From the NCBI RefSeq assembly GCF_001571045.1, contig NZ_BCSV01000006.1, forward strand, positions 1 to 64,000: 64,000 bases of DNA. The letters are read 5' to 3'. The notes beneath the pieces are model-generated. The model saw nothing but the letters and a program-made list of their open reading frames with translations. It was not told the DNA's origin and did no database searches. This DNA comes from Curtobacterium ammoniigenes NBRC 101786 (lineage in GTDB: Bacteria > Actinomycetota > Actinomycetes > Actinomycetales > Microbacteriaceae). How positions within the stretch are numbered: the first letter of the stretch is position 1; each line of letters begins with the position of its first letter. Shown here piece by piece: positions 7,342 through 50,478 of the stretch. The position numbers and the translations under genes are program-made.

Positions 7342-7452
7342 CCGTTCCCCCACCGACGATTCCCCAGTCGCCGACCCCCCGCATATCCGACGCCTCAGCG
7401 TCCTTCCCCCACCTCAGTTCCGCGCACCTCGCGCGTTTGCAAAGGAGCAATC

Positions 7453-9591: not shown

Positions 9592-9671
9592 GGCCGGTGC
9601 TGCGCTCGGAGCCGCTCTCGTGGCCACGCTTGTGGCCGCTCCGTTTCGGGCCGTTGCGGCTCCGCTCGACC

Positions 9672-9715
9672 GCGCCTGCCGTACCGCTCCTGAGGGGGAG
9701 CCGTACGGCAGGCGC
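9672..9715 (+). terminator. Hairpin terminator after the fructose operon
   Basis: A perfect 13-bp stem (GCGCCTGCCGTAC, 9672-9684, pairing with 9703-9715) encloses a further 5-bp stem (GCTCC/GGAGC) and a six-base loop. It is followed by GTGTTCGTTT. It lies about 80 bases after the permease stop. Between this hairpin and the kinase start at 9919 the only other signal is TACCGT at 9853-9858, a possible -10 box for the kinase. Confidence 0.8.
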
Positions 9716-9918
9716 GTGTTCGTTTCACGGCCGCTGGATGCGCCCTGCCGCGGACACCGCGCTGTCCGGACAATCCGGCTCTGATCAGGCCAATCCAAGC
9801 CGGACCGGCGTCACGAATGGGTAACGCGCACGCCTGCAGACCGACCCCCGGGTACCGTGAGCCGTGCGCGACGAGAACCCCCGTCTCGCGCTCCGAACCC
9901 CTCAGAATCGACGTGCCC

Positions 9919-10980: not shown

Positions 10981-11048
10981 CCGCACCGCAGCGCGCGGAT
11001 TTCTCGCGCGAGTGTGACACGACCCGCCTTGCCGGACAGGATGGACGC

Positions 11049-11675
11049 ATGAGCGACCAGCGGTGGATCAAGATCTGCGGTCTCTCCACCGAGGAAACGG
11101 TGGAGGCCGCTATCGATGCTGGGGCGGATGCCGTCGGCTTCGTCTTCGCGGAGGGCAGCCCGCGCACGATCGAGCCCGAGCGGGCGAAGGAGCTTGTCGC
11201 CGGGGTACCTGATGACATCGATGCTGTCGGTGTGTTCCGCGGGCAGGAGATCGACGAGATCATCGGCATCGCCTCCATGGTCGGGTTGACCACGCTCCAA
11301 CTGCACGACCGCGAAAGAGCGGCGGACTTCTCGCGAGCGCGGGACGCCGGGTTCTTCACGATCCGAGCGCTGTCGGCGAGCACGTATATCCGAGAATCCG
11401 TGGATCAGCGGGCGCAGTTCGACCACGATCTGCTCCTGCTGGACGCCGCGGAGCCCGGAAGCGGCATGACCATCGATCCAGCGGTACTCACGGACGCGGT
11501 CGACGAAGCGTGGATCCTCGCCGGCGGACTGACCCCCGCCAACGTCGTCGAGATGATTCAGCGGCTCGAGCCGGATGGTGTCGATGTTTCGAGCGGCGTC
11601 GAGTCCGAGCGTGGCGTGAAGGACGTGGGCAAGATCCGCGCGTTCATCGAAGCGGTGCGGAGCGCTCCGGCCTGA
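11049..11675 (+). CDS. trpF: Phosphoribosylanthranilate isomerase
   Basis: This 208-residue TIM-barrel enzyme performs the third committed step of tryptophan synthesis, converting N-(5-phosphoribosyl)anthranilate to CdRP. Typical motifs are KICGLSTEETVEAA at the N-terminus (catalytic cysteine), DAVGFVFAEGSPR, LQLHD, LAGGLTPANV and the phosphate-binding DVSSGVES. It stands alone, away from any trp operon. Its 3' end overlaps the opposite-strand HAD gene by 32 bases. The alternative family, PriA, has a different (HisA-like) sequence, so TrpF is the better call. Confidence 0.88.
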   Translation: MSDQRWIKICGLSTEETVEAAIDAGADAVGFVFAEGSPRTIEPERAKELVAGVPDDIDAVGVFRGQEIDEIIGIASMVGLTTLQLHDRERAADFSRARDAGFFTIRALSASTYIRESVDQRAQFDHDLLLLDAAEPGSGMTIDPAVLTDAVDEAWILAGGLTPANVVEMIQRLEPDGVDVSSGVESERGVKDVGKIRAFIEAVRSAPA

Positions 11676-12426
11676 GTGTCGGGATGAGGGCGCGGAGGAA
11701 CTCGTCGGTGTCCTCCCAGCCGCGGACCGCGTGGCACGGAACGCCCAGAGCCTTCACCGGGTAGTCGTTGCCGTCCGGATCGAGGCGGTCGCCGACGAAG
11801 AGCATGTCGGCGAGCGCGATGCCCGTGTGCTCGGACAGCTTCTGCATGCCGTACGCCTTGTCGATACCCTTCCGCGTGATGTCGACGCTCGTCGACCCGC
11901 CGGAGCGCACCTCGAGATCGGGGAGCTCGCTCTGGACGATTGCGCGGAGCCGGTCCTTCTTCGCACCGGTCGGGTCCCACGCCTTCTTCCGGTCGACGGG
12001 CGCGGCCTGCCCGAGGGCGGAGAACGTGATCTGCGACCCACGGTCCTCGAGGATCGGCCCCCAGGTCTCGGTCTCCCAGAGCCCAGCAGCTTTCGCCTGT
12101 GTCTCGACTGCGGCAAGCGCGCGCGCCTTCTCGTCGTCCGTGAGGTCCTCTGCGTAGAGCAGCGACCAGTCGGAGCCCGACCACCGGTAGTAGCGGGTTC
12201 CGCAGGTCGGGAGCAGATGCAGGTCGTCGACCGCGACGTCGTCGCGAGCGCGGAGGGCGCGAACGAGCTGCTCGTCGAACTGCTGGAACTGGCCGCCGGA
12301 GATCACCGCGACCGGGACCTCGGCGAGCAGCGCCGCGAGGGTGTCCACCATGCGGGGATCGAGGGGCGACTTCGACGGAGCGAGCGTGTCGTCGAGATCG
12401 AACGCGACGAGGCGGGGCGTAGTCAT
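11644..12426 (-). CDS. HAD-IIB family phosphatase
   Basis: This 260-residue cytosolic hydrolase has HAD motif I FDLDDTL (nucleophile and acid Asp), motif II in AVISGG and motif IV in FVGDRLDPDGND. A cap domain sits between motifs II and III, as in the Cof-like and phosphomannomutase-like HAD-IIB proteins. The ATG at 12426 puts motif I at residues 8-14, the usual position. It converges on and overlaps trpF by 32 bases. The substrate is probably a sugar phosphate, which cannot be fixed from the sequence. Confidence 0.87.
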   Translation of the reverse strand: MTTPRLVAFDLDDTLAPSKSPLDPRMVDTLAALLAEVPVAVISGGQFQQFDEQLVRALRARDDVAVDDLHLLPTCGTRYYRWSGSDWSLLYAEDLTDDEKARALAAVETQAKAAGLWETETWGPILEDRGSQITFSALGQAAPVDRKKAWDPTGAKKDRLRAIVQSELPDLEVRSGGSTSVDITRKGIDKAYGMQKLSEHTGIALADMLFVGDRLDPDGNDYPVKALGVPCHAVRGWEDTDEFLRALIPTLRPERSAPLR

Positions 12427-12436
12427 GGCGACAGTC

Positions 12437-12465
12437 TGCCAGGGTCGCGGGACCCGACCCTGGCA
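12437..12465 (-). terminator. Hairpin after the nitroreductase gene
   Basis: TGCCAGGGTCG (12437-12447) pairs perfectly with 12455-12465 over 11 bp around a seven-base loop. It lies 14 bases after the nitroreductase stop (read on the minus strand) and just upstream of the HAD gene start. There is no T-tract, so termination may depend on stem strength alone. Confidence 0.6.
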
Positions 12466-12478
12466 GCGGCCGTCGCGG

Positions 12479-13066
12479 CTACTCCTTGACGAGGACGATT
12501 TCGTCGAGCGGCAGGCGGGTGCGCGGTGCGGTCTCCCGAGCGGCGGCCTGCTCGTCGAGCACGGACGGGTCGGCAACCGTCCCGATTGCGCTCACGGTGA
12601 CGGGCACGAACCGGTCGGGCAGTCCGAATGCGTCGCGCAGGCCGTCGACCTCGAAGCCGCCCATCTGGTGGACGTGCAGCCCTTCGGCGTGCGCCTGGAC
12701 CGCGAGCGCGGCGATCGACTGTCCGAGGTCGTACTCGGCCCAGCGACGCGCGTCGCCGTCTGCTGTCGCGACCTCGGCGATCGCGACGATCAGGGCGCTC
12801 GCGCGGAACGCCCACGCACGGTTGAACCCGACGAGGTGCGACTCGATGGCGCGGAACGTCTCGGTGCCGCGACGGCCGACGATAAACCGACGCGGCTGCA
12901 GGTTCGCGGCCGATGGGGCCCAGCGAGCCGCCTCGAGCAGCGCGTCCAGCGCGTCGTCGTCGATGGTGGCCTCCGGGTCGAAGGCGCGGGGACTCCAGCG
13001 TTCCTCGAGCAAGTCGACGAGCGGCTGGCTGGAGTCGGTGTTCCGGGTCAGTGTGGCTGTGCTCAT
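12479..13066 (-). CDS. Nitroreductase-family oxidoreductase
   Basis: This 195-residue protein is an FMN-dependent nitroreductase-like enzyme that reduces nitro compounds, quinones or flavins with NAD(P)H. Family features are the N-terminal ERWSPRAFDPEATID segment, ARWAPSAANLQPRRFIVG (FMN-phosphate binding) and the central QMGGFEVDG region. The ATG at 13066 was preferred to a start nine codons upstream because that start lies inside a palindrome likely to be an operator. A -10-like TAGCGT on the minus strand (13097-13092) would place transcription start in the palindrome. The exact substrate is unknown. Confidence 0.87.
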   Translation of the reverse strand: MSTATLTRNTDSSQPLVDLLEERWSPRAFDPEATIDDDALDALLEAARWAPSAANLQPRRFIVGRRGTETFRAIESHLVGFNRAWAFRASALIVAIAEVATADGDARRWAEYDLGQSIAALAVQAHAEGLHVHQMGGFEVDGLRDAFGLPDRFVPVTVSAIGTVADPSVLDEQAAARETAPRTRLPLDEIVLVKE

Positions 13067-13079
13067 GGTTGCGCGAACA

Positions 13080-13092
13080 TGCCGTGACGGCA
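13080..13092 (-). promoter_or_regulatory. Palindrome upstream of the nitroreductase gene
   Basis: TGCCGT-G-ACGGCA is a perfect 13-bp palindrome ending 13 bases before the nitroreductase ATG. A possible -10 box TAGCGT (minus strand, 13097-13092) abuts it, so a bound repressor would cover the transcription start site. Confidence 0.4.
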
Positions 13093-13128
13093 CGCTATTC
13101 CTTGTCGTTGCAAGTATTTCTGTCGCGG

Positions 13129-13965
13129 TCAGAAGATCATCGGGCGGTCGTCGTCGAGCGCCGTGTCGACGTCGAGGTCGACCGAGACCGGCACGTGGTC
13201 GCTCGGGCCGTCGCCCTTGCGCTCATTGCGGTGGATCGCGGCGTCGGTCACCGTGTCGGCGAAGGCGCTCGACGCCATGATGAAGTCGATCCGCATGCCT
13301 TCGTTGCGTGGGAACCGGAGTTGCTTGTAGTCCCAGTACGTGTAGCCCGTGGGGACGAGGGGTCGGACGACATCCCGGAGGCCGCGCTCCTCGAACGCGT
13401 GGAACGCGGCGCGCTCCGGCGGCGTCACGTGCGTGTGGCCGGCGAAGACCGATACGTCCCACACGTCGTCGTCGCGTGGCGCGACGTTCCAGTCGCCCAT
13501 GAGCGCGAGCGGCAGCGTCGGGTCGGCGTCGAGCCACTCGCTCGTGTGGTCGGCAAGGCGGCGGAGCCAGTCGAGCTTGTATGTGTAGTGCGGGTCGCCG
13601 ACCTCGCGGCCGTTCGGCACATACAGGCTCCACAACCGGACGCCCTCAACGGTGACCCCGATCGCCCGCGCCTCCACCGGCAGGTCGTCGCCCTCGTGCC
13701 CCTTGAGGAAGCCCGGCTGGCCGGGGAAATCCCGCTCCACGTCCTGCATCGGCAGCCGACTCGCGAACGCGACCCCGTTCCATTGGTTGTGTCCGTGCGC
13801 CTCGACCTGGTACCCGGCCTCCTCGAACAGGTCGGTTGGGAACTGATCCGGTCGACACTTGATCTCCTGCATTGCGAGCACGTCGACGTCGGTGCGAACC
13901 AGCCAATCCACGATTCTGGAGGCGCGGGACCGGACCGAGTTCACATTCCAGGTGGCGACACGCAT
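13129..13965 (-). CDS. xthA: Exodeoxyribonuclease III / AP endonuclease
   Basis: This 278-residue DNA-repair nuclease cleaves 5' to abasic sites and removes 3' blocking groups in base-excision repair. Its family motifs are ATWNVNSVRSR at the N-terminus, MQEIKCRPDQFP (metal-binding Glu), YVPNGREVGD, MGDWNVAPRD, and the catalytic SDHVPVSVDL at the C-terminus. Length and motif order match ExoIII. The ATG sits six bases after a TAAGTT box and lacks a Shine-Dalgarno sequence, so the transcript is probably leaderless. Confidence 0.95.
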   Translation of the reverse strand: MRVATWNVNSVRSRASRIVDWLVRTDVDVLAMQEIKCRPDQFPTDLFEEAGYQVEAHGHNQWNGVAFASRLPMQDVERDFPGQPGFLKGHEGDDLPVEARAIGVTVEGVRLWSLYVPNGREVGDPHYTYKLDWLRRLADHTSEWLDADPTLPLALMGDWNVAPRDDDVWDVSVFAGHTHVTPPERAAFHAFEERGLRDVVRPLVPTGYTYWDYKQLRFPRNEGMRIDFIMASSAFADTVTDAAIHRNERKGDGPSDHVPVSVDLDVDTALDDDRPMIF

Positions 13966-13971
13966 GCGTCG

Positions 13972-13977
13972 AACTTA
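13972..13977 (-). promoter_or_regulatory. -10 box TAAGTT, leaderless xthA
   Basis: On the minus strand TAAGTT lies six bases upstream of the xthA ATG. This spacing puts transcription start at the start codon. Confidence 0.55.
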
Positions 13978-14158
13978 TCGAACCGGGGCGGTTCCACGCG
14001 GCGGATGCCGGGCCGGGATGGACGCTGCGCCGACGACCAGTGGAGGCCAGGCCTCGCCGGCGAGGCGCGCGTCCGTACGAGCGATGCACGGCTGAAAGGT
14101 GCACTGTGTCTGTATCGGCGCCGGAAGCGCGCCAGCGGGATGAGGAAAGGTATCGGCG

Positions 14159-14626
14159 ATGGCAGGCGCGACGAACAGCAATCGCAATTCGACCACTGCG
14201 ACGGCGTTTCCGGAGGGGTCCGGAGCGCAGCCGCGATCAGCGGCTCCGGCGATGACGCGCGGTCGGACGATCGTCGAGGACGCCGTCGTCGCGAAGGTTG
14301 CCGGTATCGCGGCTCGAGAGGTTCCGGGCGTCTTCGCGCTCGGCGGTAACGCCGCGCGCGCGTTCGGAGCGCTCCGCGACGCCATCGGATCGAGCGACTT
14401 CGGTCAGGGTGTCCGTGTCGAGGTCGGGGAGACGCAGGCAGCGGTCGACCTGACGATCGTCGTGGACTACCCCGTTCCGATGCTCGAAGTCGCGTCGGCG
14501 GTTCGTGAGGCCGTTGCGCGGGCCGTCACGGAGCTCGTCGGGCTCGAGGTGACCGAGGTGAATGTCGCCATCCATGACGTGAACATTCCCCACCAGAACG
14601 ATGCGCTCGAAGGACGACGGCTGTGA
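14159..14626 (+). CDS. Asp23/Gls24 family envelope stress protein
   Basis: This 155-residue protein belongs to the Asp23/Gls24 (DUF322) family of abundant, membrane-recruited alkaline-shock proteins. A disordered N-terminal 30 residues precede the domain RTIVEDAVVAKVAGIAAREVPG, and the core ends with VTELVGLEVTEVNVAIHDVNI. The Shine-Dalgarno GAGGAAAGG precedes the start. It is the first gene of a tightly overlapping five-gene operon of family-typical partners. In Staphylococcus the homologue is tethered by AmaP and its loss triggers cell-wall stress. The same role here is inferred. Confidence 0.9.
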   Translation: MAGATNSNRNSTTATAFPEGSGAQPRSAAPAMTRGRTIVEDAVVAKVAGIAAREVPGVFALGGNAARAFGALRDAIGSSDFGQGVRVEVGETQAAVDLTIVVDYPVPMLEVASAVREAVARAVTELVGLEVTEVNVAIHDVNIPHQNDALEGRRL

Positions 14627-14814
14627 ACGGCACCCTCATCGGCGCCGCGATCGGAGCACTGCTGGGCATCGTGGCGGTGGCGTTCGGCTTCTGGCCGATG
14701 GTGCTCGTCGCCGCGTTGATGGCGATCGGTGCGCTGGTCGGCCGCGTCGTCACCGGCGCGATCGACCTCGGCCGACTGGTCGACGTGCTCCGCGGGCGTC
14801 GGAGCTCATCGTGA
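14623..14814 (+). CDS. Small two-helix membrane protein, DUF2273-like
   Basis: This 63-residue protein has two hydrophobic helices (about residues 4-21 and 24-43) and a basic C-terminal tail. Such small integral membrane proteins (DUF2273) regularly accompany Asp23 genes and are thought to help anchor them. Translation starts at GTG inside the preceding stop region, and the next gene starts in its stop codon, so it is translationally coupled on both sides. Confidence 0.75.
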   Translation: MNGTLIGAAIGALLGIVAVAFGFWPMVLVAALMAIGALVGRVVTGAIDLGRLVDVLRGRRSSS

Positions 14815-15230
14815 GCGGGGGCTCGGGCCAACGGGCGTCGGTAAGCGGGTGGGAGCGGATCGACGCTCCCGCACTGATCCGCACCGCGCAGGCCGTGGCG
14901 GCGGAAGCGATGTCTGTGCCGAGTGACGCAGTGAGCGCTCGCGTGATCGACGACGGGCGTGGAGCCCTCGCGATCGTGATCGACGCTCCGCTGATCGCAC
15001 CGATGCTCGGCGCGCCGTCCGCATCGTGGTCCGGAGGACGTGCCTTCTCGACGAGGGCGCTCGCGGGGCCTGATCGGGGTGGAGCGGGCGATTCCTCGGC
15101 CATCGTTCGCGCCCACCGGTCCCGGTCCGAGATCGCGGAGCGTGTGCAACGCATCACCGGGCGCCGCGTGCACCGCGTGGATATCGACTTCACGGCTGCC
15201 GTCATCGACGCGGGCCGGCGGGTTCGATGA
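14811..15230 (+). CDS. Hypothetical protein of the Asp23 operon
   Basis: This 139-residue soluble protein has no family I can name with certainty. The last 30 residues (EIAERVQRITGRRVHRVDI) read like the C-terminal helix-strand unit of Asp23 domains, so it may be a diverged or truncated Asp23 relative. The GTG at 14811 overlaps the preceding stop and ATG 15227 overlaps its own stop. Its fixed place between membrane partners argues that it is part of the same complex. Confidence 0.6.
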   Translation: MSGGSGQRASVSGWERIDAPALIRTAQAVAAEAMSVPSDAVSARVIDDGRGALAIVIDAPLIAPMLGAPSASWSGGRAFSTRALAGPDRGGAGDSSAIVRAHRSRSEIAERVQRITGRRVHRVDIDFTAAVIDAGRRVR

Positions 15231-15892
15231 GTGCGGGCCCGACGGAGCGTCTCGCGAAGGACCGGGTGTCTCCGGGGGACGTGCGCGATGGTGGCGACCG
15301 CGATGATCGGGCCGCCCGGGCAGCGGTGGAACGGCGCGTCCTGCGTCGGGAGGGTTCGGTGTCGCGATCGGGTGCGGCGGCCGTGGTCGCGGTGATCGCG
15401 CTCCTCGTCGCGCTCGGCGTCCTCGCGGCGGGCGTCGCAGGGCTCCTGGGTGAGCGGATCGGTGTGTTCGATCCGCGAGCGGCAGCAGCCGCCGTCCCTG
15501 TGCTGCCACAGCAGACCATGCCGTGGGTGCTCGCCGTGATCGGCGTCGCCGCCATGGTCGTCGGGGTGTTCGTGCTCGCGCTCGGCGTGCTGCCGAAGCG
15601 TCGCCCACGGCACGTTGCCCGGGCGGAGCGACTGGCTGTGATCATCGACGACGAGGTGATCGCCTCGGCGCTGGCACGAGCGGCACGATCGCGGACCCGG
15701 CTCGGTCCGGAGGCGTCGGTCGCCTCCGTCGGTCGATCCACCGCGGACGTCGTGCTCCGTCCACCGGCCGGGCTGGATGTCCCCGCCGTCGCCGCGACCG
15801 GTGCCGTCGAGGACGAGCTGACCTCGATCGGTGCTGAACCGCCGATCACCGCGCGCCTTCGCGTCCTGCCCACGGGGCGGGTGGGCGGATGA
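15227..15892 (+). CDS. Membrane protein of the Asp23 operon, DUF6286-like
   Basis: This 221-residue protein has a charged cytoplasmic N-terminus of about 45 residues and two membrane helices (about 47-70 and 98-122). The C-terminal soluble domain of some 95 residues includes ERLAVIIDDEVIASALARAA. Domain order and position match the DUF6286 proteins of actinobacterial Asp23 clusters. Its biochemical role is unknown. It overlaps both neighbours by a few bases. Confidence 0.65.
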   Translation: MSAGPTERLAKDRVSPGDVRDGGDRDDRAARAAVERRVLRREGSVSRSGAAAVVAVIALLVALGVLAAGVAGLLGERIGVFDPRAAAAAVPVLPQQTMPWVLAVIGVAAMVVGVFVLALGVLPKRRPRHVARAERLAVIIDDEVIASALARAARSRTRLGPEASVASVGRSTADVVLRPPAGLDVPAVAATGAVEDELTSIGAEPPITARLRVLPTGRVGG

Positions 15893-16500
15893 ACCGCGGC
15901 AATCGAGCCCTCGGCCGCGGAGCGCTGATCGTTGCCGGGTTGGCGCTCATCATCGCCGGCGTGGAGGCGCTGCTCCTGGCCCTCACGCCGTCAGCGCGCC
16001 AGATGTGGCGGACGGCAACGGCAGGGGCCGCGCGGGCGCTCGCGTCGGCAACCCGCGGGCCGAGCGGCGGCGCCGCGGCTGGCCCCGTTTCGGCCTGGTG
16101 GGTCGTGATCGGCGTGTCGACGGCGGTGGCGATCCTCGCAATCGTCGTCCTCGCGACGCGTGGTGGTGGGCGAACCGACGAGGTGATCGTCGACGAAGAC
16201 CGATCTGGCCGGATCCCGGGGGTGGTCCGCGTGTCCACCCCCGCGGTTCAGCGGGCGCTGTCCACTGCGATCGATGCGCTTCCCGAGGTGCAGTCGCTCG
16301 CCGTCGACGTCTACGCGGTGCGGAGAGTCCCGACGATCCGGGTCCGGGTGCGGCCGCATCGAGGCGTCGCGCCTCGACGACTCATTGACGACGTCACGAC
16401 GATCGTCGAGGGGCTCGATGATCTGCTTGGGACCCACCTCCCGGTGCTGCTGCATGTCGCGCGGAGCAGCGGCAACGATCGGGCACCCCGCGTTCGCTGA
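15889..16500 (+). CDS. AmaP-like membrane anchor for Asp23
   Basis: This 203-residue protein has an N-terminal helix (about residues 10-33), a short loop, a second helix (about 66-88) and a C-terminal domain with RVSTPAVQRALSTAIDALPEVQSL. The topology and place at the end of the operon match the alkaline-shock response membrane anchor AmaP, which recruits Asp23 to the membrane. The sequence identity is not obvious by eye, so the call rests on topology and context. Confidence 0.65.
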   Translation: MNRGNRALGRGALIVAGLALIIAGVEALLLALTPSARQMWRTATAGAARALASATRGPSGGAAAGPVSAWWVVIGVSTAVAILAIVVLATRGGGRTDEVIVDEDRSGRIPGVVRVSTPAVQRALSTAIDALPEVQSLAVDVYAVRRVPTIRVRVRPHRGVAPRRLIDDVTTIVEGLDDLLGTHLPVLLHVARSSGNDRAPRVR

Positions 16501-16558
16501 GCTGCGAGGCGGCCGGTGACCGCAGCCGTCCGATCGGTGCGAAAGTGCTGGGGCGGCC

Positions 16559-17884
16559 TCAGAAGTGCACGCCGTGTGATGCCATGAACGGGACCGGATC
16601 CACCGTCGTGCTGCCCCGACGCGTCTCGAAGTGCAGGTGGCACCCGGTCGAGTTCCCTGTCGAGCCGACCAGCGCGACGACCTGACCGGCATTGACGTGC
16701 TGGCCGACGCGGACGCGGATGCCCCCGTCGACGATGTGTCCGTAGGCGGTGGCGGTTCCGTCGGCATGGTCAATGCGCACGAAGTTGCCGTATCCGCCGA
16801 ACCACCCCGTGTACCCGACGGTCCCGCCGGTGGCGGCGACGATGTCCGAGCGGCAGGCGCTCCCGAGGTCGATCCCGTCGTGCTTCGTCGCGACGCCGGT
16901 GATCGGGTGGACGCGCCACCCGTAGGGGCTGGTGATGCTCCCGCCGGCCGGGCGGACCCATCCGGACGGGGTGCCGCCTCCGGCGCCGCTGCCCGGGTCA
17001 CCCCCGCTTCCAGCGCCGCCGCCCGCGCCTGGATTCGGACGATTCGCTGCAGCCGCCGCAGCGGCTGCGGCCGCCCGCGCGGCTTCCCCCGCACGGAATT
17101 CGGCTTCTGTCCGGATGCGACCCGATGTCAAGGTGGCGAGCTGGGCCTGCAGTGTCGCTTGCTGCTGCTCTTGCTCGGCGAGCGCCTTCGCCGCTCGGTC
17201 GGAAGCAGCCTGTGCTTGCTCCATTCGCCGCTGCGCCTCGGCGCGCTGCGCGGCGAGCGCCTGCGTTGCCCGTGCGGCCTGCCGTTGCAGCGCACCAGCG
17301 GACCGAGCGGCCGAGCGTGCAGCGGATTCGATATCAGCGGCCCGGCGGCCGAGTTGTGCGGCAGTGCCGAGCTGGAACAGCAGACCCTCAGTGTCGGTCG
17401 GTGTGCTGATCGCGGCGGCAGCGAGGTCGCGTGCGCCGGATTGGGCACTCCGTGCTGCGAGTGCTCCGGCGAGTGCCGCGTGCGCTTCAGCGCGGAGCTT
17501 CTGCTCGTCGGCGGCATGGTGGAGACGGGCCTCCTCGTCCGCGGCGAGGTCCGCGGCGCGCTGCGCTGCGAAATAGGCGTCACCCTCGCTGCGCGCGACG
17601 CGCTGTGCGTCCGCCGCCGCGCCTTCCAGTTCGGCAAGCGACGTGCGGAGGCGATCGATCGTCGAACGCGTGGAAGCTTCGTTGCCGCGCGCGGCAAGCA
17701 CGTCGGCCCACGAGGGGAACGCCCGGTCGGCGGCGACCGCGGGTTCGGGCGCGGCGATGGCGGCGACCACGGCGGCGACCAGCGCGGCTGCTCGGAGCAC
17801 TCGGCTTTGCCGGTGCGCATGTCGCGCTCCGCGCGGGAGATCGGAGGAGCCGATGCGTGCAAGGCGGACGCGGTAGGAGGGCAC
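16559..17884 (-). CDS. Secreted M23 metallopeptidase with coiled-coil region
   Basis: This 441-residue exported peptidoglycan hydrolase has a signal peptide (about residues 28-52, ending near AVAADRA). A long Ala/Arg/Glu-rich coiled coil (about 60-275) and a Gly/Pro/Ser linker come next. The LytM/M23 domain has zinc ligands in KHDGIDLG and HLHFE. This EnvC/NlpD-like layout is common in cell-division or growth-related hydrolases and their activators. Both zinc motifs are intact, so it is probably active. The GTG start has the Shine-Dalgarno GAAGGA eight bases upstream. Confidence 0.92.
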   Translation of the reverse strand: MPSYRVRLARIGSSDLPRGARHAHRQSRVLRAAALVAAVVAAIAAPEPAVAADRAFPSWADVLAARGNEASTRSTIDRLRTSLAELEGAAADAQRVARSEGDAYFAAQRAADLAADEEARLHHAADEQKLRAEAHAALAGALAARSAQSGARDLAAAAISTPTDTEGLLFQLGTAAQLGRRAADIESAARSAARSAGALQRQAARATQALAAQRAEAQRRMEQAQAASDRAAKALAEQEQQQATLQAQLATLTSGRIRTEAEFRAGEAARAAAAAAAAAANRPNPGAGGGAGSGGDPGSGAGGGTPSGWVRPAGGSITSPYGWRVHPITGVATKHDGIDLGSACRSDIVAATGGTVGYTGWFGGYGNFVRIDHADGTATAYGHIVDGGIRVRVGQHVNAGQVVALVGSTGNSTGCHLHFETRRGSTTVDPVPFMASHGVHF

Positions 17885-37207: not shown

Positions 37208-38734
37208 GTGACCGAAGAAAGCTTCCAAGACGATCGTCCGATCGCGACCGCGAACAACGGTGCACCCATCGCCAGCGACGAGCACTCGCTCTCGGTCGGA
37301 GCTGACGGTGCCATCGCCCTCCACGACCACTACCTCCTCGAGAAGCTCGCGCAGTTCAACCGCGAACGGATCCCCGAGCGCATCGTGCATGCGAAGGGCG
37401 GCGGCGCGTTCGGCACCTTCACCGTCACCGGCGACGTATCCGCGTACACCCGGGCTGCATTCCTGCAGCCTGGTCAGAAGACCGAGATGCTCGCGCGGTT
37501 CTCGACGGTGGCCGGTGAGCAGGGATCGCCCGACACCTGGCGCGACCCGCGCGGCTTCGCGCTGAAGTTCTACACGTCTGAGGGCAACTACGACCTCGTC
37601 GGCAACAACACCCCCGTGTTCTTCATTCGGGACGGGATCAAGTTCCCCGACTTCATCCGGTCGCAGAAGCGCCTGCCGGGCTCGCACCTCCGCGACCACA
37701 ACATGCAGTGGGACTTCTGGACGCTCTCTCCTGAGTCAGCGCACCAGGTCACCTGGCTCATGGGCGACCGCGGTCTCCCCGCCAGCTGGCGCCACATGAA
37801 CGGCTACGGGTCGCACACCTACCAGTGGATCAACGCCGACGGTGAGCGGTTCTGGATCAAGTACCACTTCATCTCGCAGCAAGGCATCGACATCCTCAAG
37901 CAGGAAGACGCCGACCGCATCGCCGGCGAGGACGCCGACTTCCACCTCCGCGACCTCGGCGCGGCGATCGACCGCGGCGACTACCCGCGGTGGACGCTCA
38001 AGGTGCAGGTCATGCCCTTCGACGACGCAAAGCAGTACCGGTTCAACCCGTTCGACCTCACCAAGGTGTGGCCGCACAGCGACTATCCGCTGACCGAGGT
38101 CGGCACGATGGAACTGAACCGGAACCCGGAGAACTACTTCGCGCAGATCGAGCAGGCAACCTTCGAGCCGTCGAACTTCGTGCCGGGGATTGCTGCGAGT
38201 CCGGACAAGATGCTGCTCACGCGAATCTTCAGCTATGCGGACGCGCACCGCTACCGTGTCGGCACCAACTACGCGCAGCTTCCGGTCAACGCCGCACGCG
38301 TGCCCGTGCATTCGTCGGCGCGCGACGGAGCGATGCGATACGACTTCCAGCCGCAGGACGTTCCGGTGTATCGACCCGATTCAGTCGGCGGTCCGGTGGC
38401 GAACCCGGCCGCGGCCGGCGAGGTCTCCGGGTGGGAGTCCGACGGCGAGCTCGTGCGAACCGCTGCGACGCTCCACGCCGAGGATGACGACTTCGGTCAA
38501 GCGGGATCGCTCGTTCGCGACGTGATGGACGACGAGCAGCGCGATCGGCTGGTCGCGAACATCGTCGGGCACGTATCGAAGGTCACTCGTCAGGACCTGT
38601 TCGAGCGGATCTTCGAGTACTGGTCGAAGGTCGACGCGGAGCTTGGTCGTCGGGTCCGCGAGGGCGTGCAGCCTGAGGCTCCCGGAGCACAGGAGCAGCC
38701 CGAAGCCGTTGGCGTCGGTGTTCCCGGCGCCTGA
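37208..38734 (+). CDS. Monofunctional haem catalase
   Basis: This 508-residue small-subunit catalase decomposes hydrogen peroxide. Essential residues are present: distal His61 in [12 protein letters not shown], Asn134 in [10 protein letters not shown] and the proximal haem-ligand Tyr343 in [24 protein letters not shown] and the NADPH-region residues fit clade-3 enzymes. GTG start with the Shine-Dalgarno AAGGGAA. A strong terminator follows, so it is monocistronic. No adjacent Fur or OxyR-type regulator is seen. Confidence 0.96.
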
Positions 38735-38820: not shown

Positions 38821-38828
38821 GCATGCTC

Positions 38829-39698
38829 ATGTACGTATCACAGCCCCGCGCGAGCCGTAGCGAACGACGAATCCAGGCGCGGAACGCCGCACGAGCACGC
38901 CGCGAGGCGATACGTCGACGGGCCCATCGACGGCGATTGCTCGGGTGGTCCGGTGCGCTGCTCGGGGGCATGGCCGCATCCGTCGTGCTCGTCCTGATCC
39001 TGACGCAGGCGCCCGCCCCTCCCGTCGCCGGTCCCCGCAACATGCCCTCTGGCGGTCTCCGCCTCATCGGATCGGAAGGGGCCGCTGTTCCCGTGCGGGC
39101 GCGCGCAGCTGCGACCCACGAGATGATCCAGCCCGTGTCCGCCCCGGATGGCGCGGTCGGAGTGGTCATCTACGAAGATCTGCTCTGCCCAGCGTGCCGC
39201 GTGTTCGAGGAGGTCAACCTGCCGTATCTGCAGCGACTGGTCGCTGACGGTGAGGCTGAACTCGAGATCCATCCGATCGCGATCCTCGACAGGATGTCCG
39301 CCGGGTCACGCTATTCGACGCGCGCGGCGTCGGCGCTCGCGTGCGTCGCGGATCGACAGCCGGACGCGTTCCTCCCGGCCAACGTCGCCCTGTTCGCTCG
39401 ACAGCCGTCTGAAGGGAGCCGCGGACTCTCGAATCGCCAGATCGCGGACGTCCTGTCCGAGGCTGGCGCCGATGACCCGACCACGGCCTCCTGCGTGCGG
39501 TCCGGTGCGTTCACCGACTGGGTCGGCGCGGTGACGACCATCCGAACGAACACGCCCGCTCCCGGAACCGGTGGCGAGCGCATCACCGGGACACCGACGG
39601 TGCTCGTCGACGGTGAGCGCTTCGACGGCTCGATCTCCGACTCTGCCGCGTTCCAGCGCTTCGTCGAGTCGGCGCGCGACCGGCGCGGCAGCCGCTGA
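38829..39698 (+). CDS. Membrane-anchored DsbA-like thiol oxidoreductase
   Basis: This 289-residue protein has a very basic cytoplasmic N-terminus (about 38 residues, many Arg) and one membrane helix (about 40-59). The external thioredoxin-fold domain has active site CPAC (Cys120, Cys123) and cis-proline in ITGTPTVLVDG. It resembles the Thioredoxin_4/DsbA-like proteins that oxidise exported proteins in actinobacteria. No VKOR-type partner is adjacent. The ATG at 38829 is preferred to 38823 by its distance from TATTCT. Confidence 0.88.
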   Translation: MYVSQPRASRSERRIQARNAARARREAIRRRAHRRRLLGWSGALLGGMAASVVLVLILTQAPAPPVAGPRNMPSGGLRLIGSEGAAVPVRARAAATHEMIQPVSAPDGAVGVVIYEDLLCPACRVFEEVNLPYLQRLVADGEAELEIHPIAILDRMSAGSRYSTRAASALACVADRQPDAFLPANVALFARQPSEGSRGLSNRQIADVLSEAGADDPTTASCVRSGAFTDWVGAVTTIRTNTPAPGTGGERITGTPTVLVDGERFDGSISDSAAFQRFVESARDRRGSR

Positions 39699-39735: not shown

Positions 39736-40320
39736 TCAGACGAGCTGACCATCCCACGAGATCGCTCCACGAAATCGCTCCGCGGTGTCGCCGAGCGGCA
39801 GGACGCGCCATCCGCTGTCGTCGGTGACCGTCACACCGGCGCCGTTGACGGAGTAGTCGACGTACGTGACGGTCGCCTCGTCGGCCGCGGCCCAGCCGCA
39901 CGCGCCGAAGAAGGCCGCTGACTCTTCACCCGCCTGCACGACCGCGAGCGGAACGTCGAGTGTACGCAGCGTCGTCTCGAGTCGTCGCATGAGTGCGCTG
40001 CCCACGCCCGCTTCGCGCGCCTCCGGGCTGACCGCGATCAGCCCGACGGCGGCGACGAGCAGCGGACCGTCCGGCGCACGCACGAACATCCGACGAAATC
40101 CGGCGTGCGCAACGATCGCTCTGGAGGCCGTGGTCGCCAGCACGCGCGCCTCCGGTTCGATCCCGGCCCAGCTCCGGCCGCCGACGAACCAAAACGACCA
40201 ATCATCGAAGGAGCGTGCGAGCATCGCCGCAATCGCTTCGTGCTCATCGAGTGACAGGTCTGACTCGGCCGCGACGCGCCAGCGGAGGGCGCGATCGCTG
40301 TCATCGTCGGTGGTCGGCAT
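39736..40320 (-). CDS. NodA-like N-acyltransferase (GNAT fold)
   Basis: This 194-residue protein resembles the rhizobial Nod-factor acyltransferase NodA over most of its length. As I recall NodA, the alike blocks are LRWRVAAESDLSLDEHEAI, GGRSWAGIEPEARVLA followed by IVAHAGFRRMFV, LLVAAVGLIAVSPEAREAGVG, and a C-terminal part ending ISWDGQLV. NodA transfers a fatty acyl chain to the free amine of a chitin oligosaccharide. No nodB or nodC homologue is adjacent, so the natural acceptor is probably different. A general GNAT acetyltransferase is the conservative alternative. The ATG at 40320 has no clear Shine-Dalgarno sequence. Confidence 0.75.
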   Translation of the reverse strand: MPTTDDDSDRALRWRVAAESDLSLDEHEAIAAMLARSFDDWSFWFVGGRSWAGIEPEARVLATTASRAIVAHAGFRRMFVRAPDGPLLVAAVGLIAVSPEAREAGVGSALMRRLETTLRTLDVPLAVVQAGEESAAFFGACGWAAADEATVTYVDYSVNGAGVTVTDDSGWRVLPLGDTAERFRGAISWDGQLV

Positions 40321-42782: not shown

Positions 42783-44006
42783 ATGAGCTTGGACGCGTCG
42801 AGCACAGTGGATTCCCCGTCGGCTGGATCGGGCACCGAATCGAGTGCCGGGGCACGTCGCGCAGCCCTCCTCGAGGCGCTCGATGTGGTCGACGTCGGCC
42901 CTGAGGAACGCTTCGAGCGCATCACGCGCATCGCGCGGGAGGTATTCGGCGTCAGCGGCTCATTCCTGAACCTCGCGGGGACAGACACGCTCACCATCAA
43001 GTCGCAGCAGATCGACGAGCCCCTGGAGCGGGAGTGGCGGCTCGCTGACACGTTCTGCGGCCGCACGCTCGACCAGGACGCGCCCGTGATCATCCCGGAC
43101 GCGCGCGCGGACGAGCGGTATGCCGATCTCGGATTCGTGACCGGTGACCTCCAGATCCGGTTCTATGCCGGCGCGCCGCTCCGTCTTGGGGATGCCGGTG
43201 AGAAAGTGGGCACACTCTGCCTGATCGACCCGCAGCCGCGGACGCTCCGTGAGGACGAGGTGGAGTTGCTCGAGGATCTCGCGCGATGGGCGCAGCGAGA
43301 GCTGGAGAGCGGCGCCGATCACGACCGCCTCCGAGCGGTCGTCGACGGCATGGCCCCGTCCGGCGAGCAGGTGTCCGGCTACGAGATCGCCGCACTGTCG
43401 ATTCCCCATGGGGTCGTGTCGGGCGACTACTACGACTGGAGGCGCACCACCGACGGCGCCGTCGTCACCCTCGCGGACGTGATGGGCAAGGGCATGGCGG
43501 CAGGCTTGCTCGCGTCGAGCCTCCGCGGCGCCTTGCGCGCTCGGGCGGAGCTCGCGCCCGACGACGCGGTCGGCGCGCTGGAGGCGCAGATGGCGCCGGA
43601 GCTCGCCCGATCCGAGGCGTTCGCCACCCTGTTCCATGGGCAGTTGTTCGCGGAGACGGGGCGGCTCGACTTCGTCGATGCCGGGCACGGGCTCGTCCTG
43701 CATCTCGCAGCGAACGGTCGAGCAAGCATCCTTCGATCGCTGGACCTGCCGATCGGTCTGCACCCGACGGGAGCTCCCCGTGCGTCGAGCTCTCTGCTCC
43801 TCGGGAGGGGTGACGCCCTCCTCGTCGTGTCGGACGGCGTCCTCGAGCTCTGGGATTCGACACTCGACTCGCTTCGCACGCTCGGTGCGATCTACCGGGA
43901 GGCCGGCTCGATCGCCGCGTTCTTCGATGCGGTTCGCGCCCGCGCGCGCAGCCAGGATGCCGGCGACGACGTCACCGTGCTCGCGATCGCCCGAGCGGGT
44001 TCATGA
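42783..44006 (+). CDS. GAF-domain PP2C/SpoIIE phosphatase
   Basis: This 407-residue cytosolic protein joins a GAF sensor domain (about residues 40-175, with DTFCGRTLDQDAPVIIPDAR and RFYAGAPLRLG) to a SpoIIE/RsbU-type phosphatase domain (about 195-405). Metal-binding motifs are SGDYYDWRR, LADVMGKGMAAGLLASSLRG, DAGHGL, VVSDGVLE and DAGDDVTVL. Such enzymes dephosphorylate anti-anti-sigma factors and so control a sigma factor in response to a ligand or redox signal. No RsbV/W partner is adjacent. It overlaps the next gene (ATGA). Confidence 0.92.
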   Translation: MSLDASSTVDSPSAGSGTESSAGARRAALLEALDVVDVGPEERFERITRIAREVFGVSGSFLNLAGTDTLTIKSQQIDEPLEREWRLADTFCGRTLDQDAPVIIPDARADERYADLGFVTGDLQIRFYAGAPLRLGDAGEKVGTLCLIDPQPRTLREDEVELLEDLARWAQRELESGADHDRLRAVVDGMAPSGEQVSGYEIAALSIPHGVVSGDYYDWRRTTDGAVVTLADVMGKGMAAGLLASSLRGALRARAELAPDDAVGALEAQMAPELARSEAFATLFHGQLFAETGRLDFVDAGHGLVLHLAANGRASILRSLDLPIGLHPTGAPRASSSLLLGRGDALLVVSDGVLELWDSTLDSLRTLGAIYREAGSIAAFFDAVRARARSQDAGDDVTVLAIARAGS

Positions 44007-44683
44007 CCCAGCCGACGCCGGCAGCAGCCGCGCCGTCACTGCGTGCGCTCGTCGTCGCACCGCATCCGGACGACGCCGAACTGGGCTGTCCGGCGCTCAT
44101 CGAAGCGACCGAGGCCGACATCCTCGTCCTGTGCGGGAGTAGCCCTGAACGCGTCGCCGAGGCGAAGAACGCGGCGCAATCGCTGTCCCGGGGTGCCCTC
44201 CGGATCCTCAGGTATCAGGACGGATCACTGCAGCCGACGCAGGACCTGATCCGTTCGCTCGACGCACTCCTGCCCGGCTACGACATCGTCGCCGGTCCGC
44301 CGCAGCTCGATTCGCACCAGGACCACCGCGCGACGGCACAGGCCCTCCGGAGTGCCGTGCGGCGCAGTGCGACGACCCTGCTCGAGTACGAGACGCCATC
44401 GACGCTCGCGGAATGGGCGCCGACCGCCTACCTGCCGATCGACGCTGGCCATGTCGAGCGCTGGACCGCATCCGCCCGGGAGCACGTGTCGCAGAGCGGC
44501 GCCTCCTACTTCGACGTGGAGTACCGCCTGTCCCGTGCGCGAGTGCACGGGTACGCAGTGGGCCACGACAACGCCGAGGCCTATCGCGTGGTGCGGACCG
44601 ATGCGCGTCTCCTGCTCGGGACGGAGGAGCGCACGTGGTCGCCGGTTCGAACCCCGGTGGTCAGGCCCCGAGTCGCTCGATGA
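44003..44683 (+). CDS. PIG-L/LmbE-family deacetylase
   Basis: This 226-residue zinc enzyme has the metal motif VVAPHPDDAELG and the distal HQDHRATAQAL. It belongs to the GlcNAc-deacetylase family (MshB, BshB, PIG-L). The substrate may be an N-acetylated sugar or mycothiol-related conjugate; the sequence alone does not say which. It is coupled to the phosphatase gene by ATGA and overlaps the 3' end of purC by 23 bases in convergent orientation. Confidence 0.88.
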   Translation: MTQPTPAAAAPSLRALVVAPHPDDAELGCPALIEATEADILVLCGSSPERVAEAKNAAQSLSRGALRILRYQDGSLQPTQDLIRSLDALLPGYDIVAGPPQLDSHQDHRATAQALRSAVRRSATTLLEYETPSTLAEWAPTAYLPIDAGHVERWTASAREHVSQSGASYFDVEYRLSRARVHGYAVGHDNAEAYRVVRTDARLLLGTEERTWSPVRTPVVRPRVAR

Positions 44684-47375: not shown

Positions 47376-49949
47376 TCAGAGCAGCTCGCGCAATTCGGAT
47401 CGCGTGTGCAGTCCCCATTTCGCGAAGACCCGGGCCAGATGTGCATCGATCGTCCGCACCGAGACACTGAGACGTGCTGCGATCTCGCGATTGCTCGCTC
47501 CCTTGGCCGCCAGGGTTGCGACCTCGTGCTCGCGTTTGGTGAGCGGCGGGCGAATCGCCGTCGAGATGCTTCTCGGGAACCCGGCCCGAGCGAGCGCTGC
47601 GCGCGCGGCTCGCATCGCCGGGAGGTCGTCGGTGGCTTCGGCGTCGAGCATGGCGATGACGGCTTCTGCGACCGGAGTTTGAACGCGTGTCGCGAGGTCG
47701 CGGGCGCGCTTGGTGATTCGTGTCACGTTCTGACCGAGCTCTTCAGTGATGCGCATTTGGAGCAGCACGCCGAAGAGGGCCGGCAGCCACGATTCGGTGG
47801 CGATCGACCGCTCGGTGATCTCGACGGCGTGTGGAAGCGCGGCGGGGCGCCCGAGCACCATCTGGGTGAACGCGTTGGTGCTCGGCACCTCTTCCGCTGT
47901 GATCCGCATTCCGCGAAGTGGGGTGGCCTGTGCGCGGTCGAGGGCGGCCGAAGCCTGAGTGGTATCGCCGAGCATTGCGAGCGCGAGGGCGAGCCGCGAC
48001 CAGGCATACGCGCTGAAGCCGCCGTGGTCGCTGATCGCGAATCGATCGGCGGCCGCCGAGAACGCGGCGCGCGCATCCTCCCAACGCCGCTGGGCGATCG
48101 CCACGTTGCCCTCGGCGAGCAGCTCGAGGGTGAAGTCGTATTTGAAGAACGGGTTGGGCCGGAACGGCGACACGTGCGTCGGGATGTCGTCGATCAGTCC
48201 CGCCCACATGTGGACCTGATGGGTCACGCTCATGATTTCGCCGACACTCCAGGGGGCGACCTCGACGTTCGCAGACGCAGTCGCGAGCGCGAATGCGGCG
48301 AGGCGGAGCGCATCGGGCACGCGTCCTGCCACGGCGAGCGCGACGATCGAGCACGGCACGAGTGCCAGCGCGGCGACCGGCACCGAACCGTCGAGCATCC
48401 CCGAACGATCGGTCTCGACGAGCACCCCTTGAAAGCGGCCGCCCCACCCTTCGTGGGCGAGACGCAGGATGCGGAGCCGCGCCCTGCCCTGCTCGTCGAG
48501 CAGGGGTTCCGCGGCGTCGACGATCGCGAGCGCGCCGTCGACGTCGTCGTCGTGGAACTGCACGAGGTTCGCCATCGTCTCGGCGGCTTCGATCAGCAGT
48601 GCCGGTGGGAGCGCGTGCGCATGTTCGCGCGCTTCCTCCCACGCGGTGCTGGCGTCACATCGGGCCGCTTCGCGGCCACGGAGGAACGTTGTGGCGGTGG
48701 CTCTGAGCACGCGCGCGGCGACGGTCGCAGCGGGCTCTGCGGGTGGTGTGCCGAGCACCGCGGTGGTCAACTCGATCGCGCTCTCGTACTCCTGGAGGCT
48801 GATGGCAGCCTCCGCCGCGTCGAGGAGGTCGTCCGCTGGAGGGACGATCCCGCACTCGAGCGACCAGAGGCACGCGCGCAGGCGTCCGGCCGGTGTCGCT
48901 GCGGCCGAGGTATCGGCGCGAAACGCGTTCGATCGCGCGAACAGCGCTGTTCGGCGGGCGACCGGCACGAGGTCGCGGACGGCCTCGCCGAGCAGCGGGT
49001 TCGCGGGGCGAGCGACCGGCGTGCCGTCCGGGGCGCCGCGACTCTCGAGTCGGATGAGACCCGTCGCGACCGACTGGTCCAGGTCGGAGTCGTTCACGAG
49101 TTCGCGGAGGTGTGCGAGGGGCAGCGGATCTGCGAGCGCGACGATGTCCACGGTCTCGCGGATCGGATCCGGGAGACCGCGCAACGTGGTCCGGTACATG
49201 TCGATGAGACTCGACGCGGCCGTGATGCGCCCGCGCCAGAACCACCCGGACGCGGTTCGTTCGAGCGCTCCGGACGCGAGACCGTCGCGAACGACCTCGC
49301 GAAGGTACAGGGGGTTCCCCTCGGTCGCTCGGTGGAGACGGTTGACGGATGCGGCGTCGAGCGGCTGTCCGAGCACGTCGGCCAAGAGCCGATCGACGCT
49401 GTCGAGGGAGAGTGGCTGAAGCGCTACCCGGTGCAGCAGATCGTCGTTCCAGAGTCCCTGCAACGGCTCGGGGACCCGCGCGAAGTCACGACAGGTCAGG
49501 ACGATTCGCGCACCCCGCTCGCGAACCAGCCACGCGAGGTATCGCGCCGTGAGGCCGTCGATTCGATCGCCGCCGTCGAGGTGGAAGATCACGTCGGCGT
49601 CCGTGATCGCCGCGGCGTCCCGAATCGCTCGATCCGCGTCCAACGGGTGACTGTTGGCGCCCGCGGGGAGGTCGGCGAGTGCGTCGGCACCCGCGGCGAA
49701 CGGCTTGGACGACTCGTGCGGACCGGGCTCGATCGGGACGACTCGGACCGCGCTGGTCGTCGCGGCCCGGTCGATGACGGCACGGGCGAGCACCGTCTTG
49801 CCGATCCCCGGGCCGCCCACGATGGCGACGCTGCGCCTGTCGTCGATGACGAGTCGGGCGATGGTCAGCTCCTCGGGGCGGGAGAGGACCGGCCAGGGGC
49901 GACGGATCGACGACTCGCGGGCGCCGCCGGTGTTGGCGCTCCTGGACAT
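47376..49949 (-). CDS. Large ATP-binding LuxR-family regulator
   Basis: This 857-residue regulator has an N-terminal ATPase domain with Walker A VGGPGIGKT (about residue 45) and a Walker-B-like IFHLDGGDR. A long helical, TPR-like middle region of about 500 residues and a C-terminal LuxR/FixJ helix-turn-helix (TKREHEVATLAAKGASNREI, then VRTIDAHLARVFAKWG) complete it. This is the LAL/MalT-like layout. The inducer is unknown and no target operon is obvious. The ATG at 49949 has a good Shine-Dalgarno GGGAGG. A longer frame upstream is not supported. Confidence 0.9.
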   Translation of the reverse strand: MSRSANTGGARESSIRRPWPVLSRPEELTIARLVIDDRRSVAIVGGPGIGKTVLARAVIDRAATTSAVRVVPIEPGPHESSKPFAAGADALADLPAGANSHPLDADRAIRDAAAITDADVIFHLDGGDRIDGLTARYLAWLVRERGARIVLTCRDFARVPEPLQGLWNDDLLHRVALQPLSLDSVDRLLADVLGQPLDAASVNRLHRATEGNPLYLREVVRDGLASGALERTASGWFWRGRITAASSLIDMYRTTLRGLPDPIRETVDIVALADPLPLAHLRELVNDSDLDQSVATGLIRLESRGAPDGTPVARPANPLLGEAVRDLVPVARRTALFARSNAFRADTSAAATPAGRLRACLWSLECGIVPPADDLLDAAEAAISLQEYESAIELTTAVLGTPPAEPAATVAARVLRATATTFLRGREAARCDASTAWEEAREHAHALPPALLIEAAETMANLVQFHDDDVDGALAIVDAAEPLLDEQGRARLRILRLAHEGWGGRFQGVLVETDRSGMLDGSVPVAALALVPCSIVALAVAGRVPDALRLAAFALATASANVEVAPWSVGEIMSVTHQVHMWAGLIDDIPTHVSPFRPNPFFKYDFTLELLAEGNVAIAQRRWEDARAAFSAAADRFAISDHGGFSAYAWSRLALALAMLGDTTQASAALDRAQATPLRGMRITAEEVPSTNAFTQMVLGRPAALPHAVEITERSIATESWLPALFGVLLQMRITEELGQNVTRITKRARDLATRVQTPVAEAVIAMLDAEATDDLPAMRAARAALARAGFPRSISTAIRPPLTKREHEVATLAAKGASNREIAARLSVSVRTIDAHLARVFAKWGLHTRSELRELL

Positions 49950-50085
49950 GTGCGCCTCCCATCGGTGCTGCATCGCGCACCAATCCTGACAACTGTGCCC
50001 GGTGGTTCGGACGTCCCAACCCGGGGGGCAGATGAACGATGCGGGCCGGATCAAGGGTGTCGGCGGACTGGGGGAGAATGGTGCT

Positions 50086-50478
50086 GTGAGCACCACCCCA
50101 CCAGACAGCTACCGCGAGGCGGACGTCACTATCCGTCGTGCGCCGAAGTTCGGCGTCTTCATCGTCGGCGGAGCGATCGCCGGCTTCGTGGTGTCGTTCA
50201 TCGTCGTCGCTCTCACCCAGAATCTCGGGCAGGGCGCGAACGTCGTCGACACGACGGGAACCTCAGCCTCGGCCGTCGGCTTCTGGGGGCAGGTAGGCTA
50301 TTTTTCGCTCTGGGGCATCACCGCGGGACTCATCATCGGTGCGGTGGTTGCGGTGCTGCTCGATGCCGTTCTGCGTCGCCGGTCAGCGCGGCTCGTCGCA
50401 CAGCGGCGCGTCGTGGAACCGGAGCCGGAGACCGTTGAGGGTGAGCTCGACGCCGACGCCGACGCGGACCGGTCGTAG
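50086..50478 (+). CDS. Small two-helix membrane protein beside purF
   Basis: This 130-residue protein has two hydrophobic segments (about residues 23-43 and 70-93) and an acidic C-terminal tail rich in Asp and Ala. I recognise no catalytic motif. The GTG at 50086 has both a GGGGGAGA sequence nine bases upstream and a GAGAAT -10-like box six bases upstream, so its mode of initiation is unclear. Similar proteins are, as I recall, common beside purF in related actinobacteria, but the function is unknown. Confidence 0.65.
   Translation: MSTTPPDSYREADVTIRRAPKFGVFIVGGAIAGFVVSFIVVALTQNLGQGANVVDTTGTSASAVGFWGQVGYFSLWGITAGLIIGAVVAVLLDAVLRRRSARLVAQRRVVEPEPETVEGELDADADADRS

Follow-up and report, generated by a model that had tools for sequence, protein, structure and literature searches.

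Canonical NodA is an active enzyme family with which rhizobia attach a fatty acyl chain to their nodulation signal, a de-N-acetylated chitin oligomer, and it thus uses a 2-amino-hexose acceptor. NodA homologs of non-nodulating Actinobacteria have been described by Persson et al. (2015, PMC4447401) as more diverse than rhizobial NodA and as branching outside of it, their role being left open there, with a link to the cell wall tentatively suggested; the names Clavibacter, Curtobacterium, Leifsonia and Microbacterium are absent from its main text. AAC(2') likewise uses a 2-amino-hexose acceptor (PMC4964394), and PMC6363676 ascribes to the mycobacterial AAC(2') enzymes main roles other than resistance. 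With regard to catalysis, Eis is described as using its C-terminal carboxylate for the remote base (PMC8556138) and N-myristoyltransferase as likewise employing it as a base (PMC4964394), and for AAC(2')-Ic either E82 or W181 has been proposed (PMC4964394). NodA-like actinobacterial acyltransferases are hence already known, and what is of most interest here is the link of this family to AAC(2') and the proposal that its C-terminal carboxylate is catalytic.

A NodA-like gene in Curtobacterium ammoniigenes

The window, meaning the whole stretch of 64,000 nucleotides that was analysed (contig NZ_BCSV01000006.1 of Curtobacterium ammoniigenes NBRC 101786), contains on its minus strand an open reading frame that runs from an ATG at 40320 to a stop at 39736-39738 and encodes a product of 194 residues, which on ORF, Pfam and tblastn evidence is a NodA-like GNAT acyltransferase. 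The plus strand of 39736-40320 has three stops in frame 1, and the earlier note on this DNA, which had claimed a gene here and named no strand, gave its coordinates correctly. An alternative in-frame ATG upstream at 40395 would yield 219 residues, and most relatives begin near the shorter form, their starts having been chosen by script. The GC content by codon position is 0.72/0.55/0.81, an order likewise found in the neighbouring genes.

Pfam NodA (PF02474) is the best Pfam family for the protein (E 2.5e-24, 86.4 bits, cut-off 22) as compared to 33.1 bits for the best generic GNAT model, Acetyltransf_9, with other GNAT models lower still; the comparison by which the NodA-family claim of the earlier note could have failed, namely a generic GNAT model scoring higher, therefore came out in favour of that claim. 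The NodA blocks it had claimed are likewise present, as R49-SWAG-IE-PE-A-R59 and AH72-AGF-RRMF, and alignment with five rhizobial NodA and NodA-like rows places the R49-SWAGIEPEA-R59 codons, corresponding to the NodA signature RSWAG..PE.R, at 40144..40176 and those of A71-H72-A-G-F-R-R-M-F79 at 40084..40110, both on the minus strand. The acyl-CoA pyrophosphate loop of GNAT proteins is defined by the motif [QR]xxGx[GA], and together with the predicted GNAT fold the residues R102-E-A-G-V-G107, which align with this loop (40000..40017, minus strand), place the protein in the GNAT superfamily. The Tyr general acid that is common, albeit not universal, among GNATs is by contrast replaced in the window copy, where the alignment has Phe138 at this position (39907..39909, minus strand).

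PF02474 is matched by all 39 family members scanned, the window protein included, and by none of 14 control genomes, and one AAC(2') protein gave no match to this model at E 0.001. Searching 72,556 plasmid records with the window protein (tblastn) gave matches in 230 records, of genera which, going by the first word of each name, we take all to include nodulating bacteria; among the matches listed, 58 of 60 fall within a feature that bears the name NodA and the other two within no listed feature, and in none of the 230 records does the match cover at least 80% of the query. A profile-profile comparison of the NodA-like family with five rhizobial NodA furthermore aligned 179 columns at 99.7% and E 5e-26. 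The protein nevertheless reaches just 65 bits with the canonical NodA model TIGR04245 (NCBIfam), whose cut-off is 175. For scale, NodA from Sinorhizobium fredii NGR234 reaches 326 bits with Pfam NodA. With canonical NodA the window protein shares RSWAG..PE.R, AH.G..RR, the C-terminal WP.G..I..NG..L, of which WP is lost in the window copy, and the fixed C-terminal end, but it differs in its lower score and in the lack of a linked nodB or nodC. Judged by its sequence the window protein is thus NodA-like and not a canonical NodA, and, being a NodA homolog of an actinobacterium that falls outside the canonical NodA clade, it belongs to the actinobacterial NodA-like acyltransferases as these are described in PMC4447401.

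Relationship to AAC(2') and to canonical NodA

Structure prediction, which the earlier note had proposed as a check, yielded an AlphaFold2 model (built with 38 named orthologs; pLDDT 85, pTM 0.82) whose best 29 chains in a Foldseek search of the PDB are all AAC(2'). After structural re-alignment ranks 1-13 are AAC(2') without exception, with Z of 17.7-20.5 over 169-175 residues and an rmsd of 2.5-3.5, the next entry having a Z of 15.4, and a model of the C. luteum ortholog again placed AAC(2') first (Z 17.3-19.5), with a smaller gap to the next at 16.1. The AAC(2')-I fold is thus the closest one over the full length, a statement that pertains to predicted models only. In searches of PDB sequences the family profile likewise found AAC(2')-Ia first (3e-10), with the mycobacterial AAC(2') enzymes at 3e-4 to 7e-4, behind another GNAT (2q0y, 8.7e-7), and a wider alignment of 19 rows that includes two rhizobial NodA found AAC(2')-Ia at 1.9e-11; the family profile compared to that of nine AAC(2') sequences gave 98.2% and E 2.7e-14 over 157 columns. 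The window sequence alone, on the other hand, has an Eis protein as its best PDB match (5.6e-4) and reaches AAC(2') only at E 0.19, and the NCBIfam Eis-type models score 28-30 bits on it as against 19 for AAC(2')-Ib. The curated AAC(2')-I models are indeed far from being reached, AAC_2p_Ib giving 19 bits and AAC_2p_Id 17.3 where the cut-off is 400.

Compared directly, the profiles of NodA and AAC(2') gave a mere 1.3%, and rhizobial NodA found no relative among PDB sequences, the best hits being unrelated proteins at E 0.36 for one NodA and 0.47 for the profile of five. Going by these comparisons the NodA-like group forms a bridge between NodA and AAC(2') that is visible only through this middle group, and a literature search, largely confined to journals that are readable without subscription, found no published link between the two. 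Shared with AAC(2')-I are the best full-length fold match, the best PDB profile match (AAC(2')-Ia) and His72, as well as a Tyr in 30 NodA-like rows, whereas the NodA-like family has SW.G..PE.R where AAC(2') has its DWEH..GG.H segment. The significance of this tie is that structures of AAC(2') with CoA and sugars are solved.

The tree was made from 26 of 59 genome-search proteins, 4 of 60 named loci and 7 of 12 AAC(2') loci, the final version also taking in 2 of 3 actinobacterial NodA matches above cut-off. When it is rooted on AAC(2'), its earliest branches are two weak members and a group from another class, followed by two sister groups, one of which is the window clade (22 rows, 100/99) and the other of which joins the seven canonical NodA (five rhizobial and two actinobacterial, 100/100) with four Microbacteriaceae proteins at a support of 91/86 only. 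The window protein accordingly does not group with rhizobial NodA. For these four, the joining of L031 with L049/L053/L055 drew a long-branch warning from the tree program. An actinobacterial origin of nodA is argued for in PMC4447401, and the tree agrees with it.

Distribution and genomic setting

Full-length orthologs are found in 34 of 36 Curtobacterium genomes, its own counted, and those of the 33 other carriers are 41-46% identical to the window protein. In other families of the order an ortholog was found in 0 of 23 genomes; within the family PF02474 matches above cut-off in 29 of 249 genomes, again including its own, and at E 0.001 in 12 of 85 genera, and in a phylum-wide sample 7 of 396 genomes, own included, match at 1e-5. 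A first scan of genome contigs with the window protein as single query found no relative. Named carriers are Curtobacterium, Frigoribacterium, Frondihabitans, Clavibacter and Planctomonas, and many of these genera live on plants. That the gene is chromosomal, as had been claimed, is borne out by relatives that carry the same locus in a single contig of about 3.7-3.8 Mb (G010 and G031), and the gene is an ordinary resident of Curtobacterium, found at one chromosomal place in the main clade.

For conserved neighbours, a search for which had also been proposed, tblastn (E 1e-6) was run on 40 loci, each spanning about 20 kb around a PF02474 match, 20 from Curtobacterium and 20 from other genera, in three of which latter the window protein itself gave no match by tblastn. 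The same pur/catalase locus is found in the 20 other Curtobacterium genomes examined. A catalase, in the window a convergent neighbour at 37208..38734 on the plus strand, is present in 29 of the 40 loci, i.e. 19 of 20 in Curtobacterium, the sole exception being cut by a contig end with lepB and pur genes present, and 10 of 20 in other genera; it is a marker of synteny, and functional partnership is not implied. Furthermore lepB occurs in 18 of the 20 Curtobacterium loci and purC or purD in 11 of the 20 from other genera. This conserved synteny does not extend to the sugar genes that the earlier note had put forward as partners, namely PIG-L, GT2 and GtrA, which are found in 0 of the 40 loci and are local to the window genome, and no conserved neighbour pointing to sugar chemistry was found in these 40 loci. 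In comparison with the homologs described by Persson et al. (2015, PMC4447401), the gene occupies in Curtobacterium and some further genera a catalase/pur locus in which we recognise no cell-wall partner. The catalase, a glyoxalase (L066) and neighbouring GNATs (L083, L095) were also considered as partners and rejected, being either convergent or different between genera, the neighbour ORF lists behind the glyoxalase and GNAT comparison being heuristic.

Other features of the surroundings may be mentioned as well. Between the catalase and the NodA-like gene lies a thioredoxin_4/DsbA-like protein (38823-39698), for which the 40 loci gave a single weak match, of 31%, in L094 at a distance of about 5 kb from the NodA-like gene there. 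The PIG-L start at 44003 overlaps by 4 bases with the stop of a GAF/SpoIIE phosphatase gene (44006; region 42783-44683), and owing to this overlap the two genes are likely coupled. A 906-residue protein, read from its sequence as a LuxR-type regulator, is encoded between purD and purF (47376-50096) and has homologs in L073 and L078 among the 40 related loci, many of which are too short to reach it. A defence system was likewise considered and rejected, there being no PADLOC match at E 0.01.

The gene does lie outside any nodulation cluster, as had been stated, since none of seven window neighbours scanned with Pfam is of NodB or NodC type. The further statement that no nodC-like synthase is visible fits the 30-52 kb part of the window. 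Elsewhere the genome encodes a GT2 with 30% identity to NodC, which is its one NodC match, and has one polysaccharide deacetylase (PF01522) match, both on other contigs. This GT2 adjoins two beta-helix proteins and a UDP-sugar dehydrogenase (L182, C1:22000-38000, there at 6768-13015), and the region is perhaps, as its gene content would have it, an alginate/hyaluronate-type polysaccharide locus. The Microbacteriaceae copy that scores best with NodA (L081, genome G199) was likewise considered as part of a proto-nod cluster, which was rejected as none of ten neighbours scanned is of nodB or nodC type. Its neighbours (6664-17842) are two integrase-core proteins, a GNAT, a 770-residue haem peroxidase, an APH-type phosphotransferase and a subtilase, a setting which suggests that the region is mobile.

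Active-site residues and possible function

His72 is kept in all 43 rows compared, i.e. the window protein, 5 rhizobial NodA, 30 NodA-like and 7 AAC(2') sequences, and the CoA loop is kept in the window protein and in at least 28 of the 30 NodA-like rows. At the first position of this loop the NodA-like rows have Q in 25 cases, R in 4 and H in 1, the window protein has R, the two actinobacterial NodA have Gln and all five rhizobial ones have Glu. Every one of the 30 NodA-like and 7 AAC(2') rows carries the general-acid Tyr, but it is missing in the window copy (Phe138) and in all seven canonical NodA, whose alignment has an insertion here and is less sure. A Trp that is likewise found in all 30 NodA-like rows is lost together with the Tyr in the seven canonical NodA, whereas the window copy has kept it. 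The column of AAC(2') Glu82, finally, holds Glu in 7 of 7 AAC(2') and Gly in all 36 rows of window, rhizobial NodA and NodA-like proteins.

In contrast to the N-termini of the family, which are of variable length, the C-terminal end is fixed. Of 125 sequences, 124 stop exactly three residues past an [NDR][GA] pair and have a hydrophobic last residue, the exception being L058; in the window protein the corresponding motif is G185-AISWDGQL-V194, encoded with the stop at 39736..39768 on the minus strand. The count covers 59 genome-search proteins, 60 named loci, 5 rhizobial NodA and the window protein, leaves out two window copies (L001, L048) and three weak or fragmentary PF02474 matches (L059, L060, L109), and contains the same gene twice for some genomes; the number of distinct 12-residue tails is 57. 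Given the absence of Glu82 and the fixed C-terminal end, the carboxylate becomes the natural candidate base, and the pattern suggests, by analogy with Eis and N-myristoyltransferase, that it may be catalytic. Alignments with M. tuberculosis Eis stop at residue 193-194 of the model and, for most rows, at residue 402 of Eis, but Eis has three domains, unlike the NodA-like protein. It counts against the carboxylate that the C-terminus of AAC(2') lies about six residues before the NodA-family end in sequence alignments, whereas structural alignments run through to the final residues of AAC(2') and the NodA-like model alike, and the two C-termini are hence only tentatively equivalent.

Our preferred explanation, to which we would give somewhat less than an even chance, is that the protein is a GNAT-fold N-acyltransferase. 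As the loop motif suggests, its donor would be an acyl-CoA, acetyl or longer, from which the acyl group would pass directly within a ternary complex to a primary amine; this would probably be the amino group at position 2 of a glucosamine-type sugar, belonging either to the cell envelope or to a small metabolite. The remote base would be the enzyme's own C-terminal carboxylate, as the fixed C-terminus suggests, and there would be no part in Nod factor synthesis. An amino sugar is favoured as acceptor because the nitrogen acylated by NodA, and likewise that acylated by AAC(2'), is that of a 2-amino-hexose. The proposal of the earlier note that an amino sugar is modified stays a fair guess by virtue of the fold and profile relation to AAC(2'), while its original basis in PIG-L, GT2 and GtrA fails. 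Both substrate and mechanism are what we infer for the modelled enzyme, as the fold alone does not give the substrate, and our confidence is lowered by the single sequence favouring Eis in the PDB and by the weak profile match of the mycobacterial AAC(2') enzymes. The carboxylate mechanism, likewise inferred, has the merit of being a testable claim.

Among other explanations, a role in intrinsic resistance as an AAC(2')-type acetyltransferase inactivating aminoglycosides or other amino-sugar antibiotics would be in keeping with AAC(2') being the closest fold and the closest match of the family profile, but the Gly that takes the place of the proposed remote base Glu82, the 19 bits with the AAC(2')-Ib model and the replaced DWEH..GG.H segment make it distinctly unlikely; in view of the non-resistance main roles given for the mycobacterial enzymes in PMC6363676, it moreover shades into our preferred explanation. 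Somewhat better founded, if still unlikely, is the notion of a GNAT acting on another amine, such as a protein N-terminus, a polyamine or a small metabolite, with no amino-sugar role at all and a NodA likeness that would reflect descent only. GNAT acceptors do vary widely, generic GNAT models also match, the single window sequence finds Eis first and no conserved sugar gene is linked in the 40 loci, but it would then be odd that the two best relatives, NodA and AAC(2'), both use 2-amino-hexose acceptors. Hardly credible, by comparison, is that the protein acts as a genuine NodA in lipo-chitooligosaccharide synthesis, together with a NodB and a NodC from other parts of the genome, even though the family match and the deacetylase and NodC matches on other contigs could be cited in its favour. 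The protein scores 65 of 175 bits against the curated NodA cut-off and its clade is separate from that of the rhizobial and actinobacterial NodA; among 14 genomes with a NodA-like gene PF01522, the NodB-type deacetylase domain, is absent from 4, a NodC query matches in 12 with 22-41% identity, and in none of the 14 do the coordinates put a PF01522 or NodC match close to the NodA-like gene, the nearest on one contig being about 215 kb away. These unlinked matches and the setting of the own GT2, next to beta-helix proteins and a UDP-sugar dehydrogenase, led us to reject such a synthesis with distant partners.

A change or loss of the original function in the window copy, with the family being active elsewhere, is compatible with the other readings of the family and appears unlikely. 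The end branch of the window copy (0.77-0.81) is among the three longest in the tree, and the copy departs from 15 of 56 family-conserved columns (kept in at least 92% of the 38 relatives), including by Y138F, N190D and the loss of the Pro of the WP.G motif, as compared to 9, 6, 4 and 3 for four of these relatives and 0-2 for the remaining 34. The identity of 41-46% within the genus likewise stands against well conserved neighbours, with 78-81% for catalase and 83-94% for parts of PurL. Conversely, the reading frame is intact, the predicted fold is confident, the codon-position GC is ordered as in the neighbouring genes, the CoA loop, His72 and the C-terminal length are retained, and the Tyr is absent too from all seven canonical NodA, members of an active family. 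In Curtobacterium the gene is under purifying selection, with a median dN/dS of 0.23 for 494 of 496 pairs of 32 genes, a figure for the genus and not for the window lineage. The window copy is accordingly unusually diverged in sequence and its activity may be altered.

A wider scenario, which we regard as doubtful though somewhat less so than the non-sugar amine reading, is that NodA had a pre-symbiotic ancestor of which the NodA-like enzymes in Curtobacterium and its kin are living relatives; these enzymes would be CoA-dependent 2-amino-sugar N-acyltransferases of AAC(2') stock with a carboxylate base; NodA would then have lost the Tyr/Trp pair, and in rhizobia the CoA loop as well, perhaps as the donor became acyl carrier protein. 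In any case the conserved chromosomal system offers a place to seek the substrate that NodA-type enzymes originally had, which PMC4447401 leaves open.

Canonical NodA itself is found above cut-off in 2 of 394 genomes of the class. One actinobacterial genome has two such matches about 6 kb apart (L184 and L188), one of them with an internal stop, an arrangement that recalls the one described for Frankia in PMC4447401.
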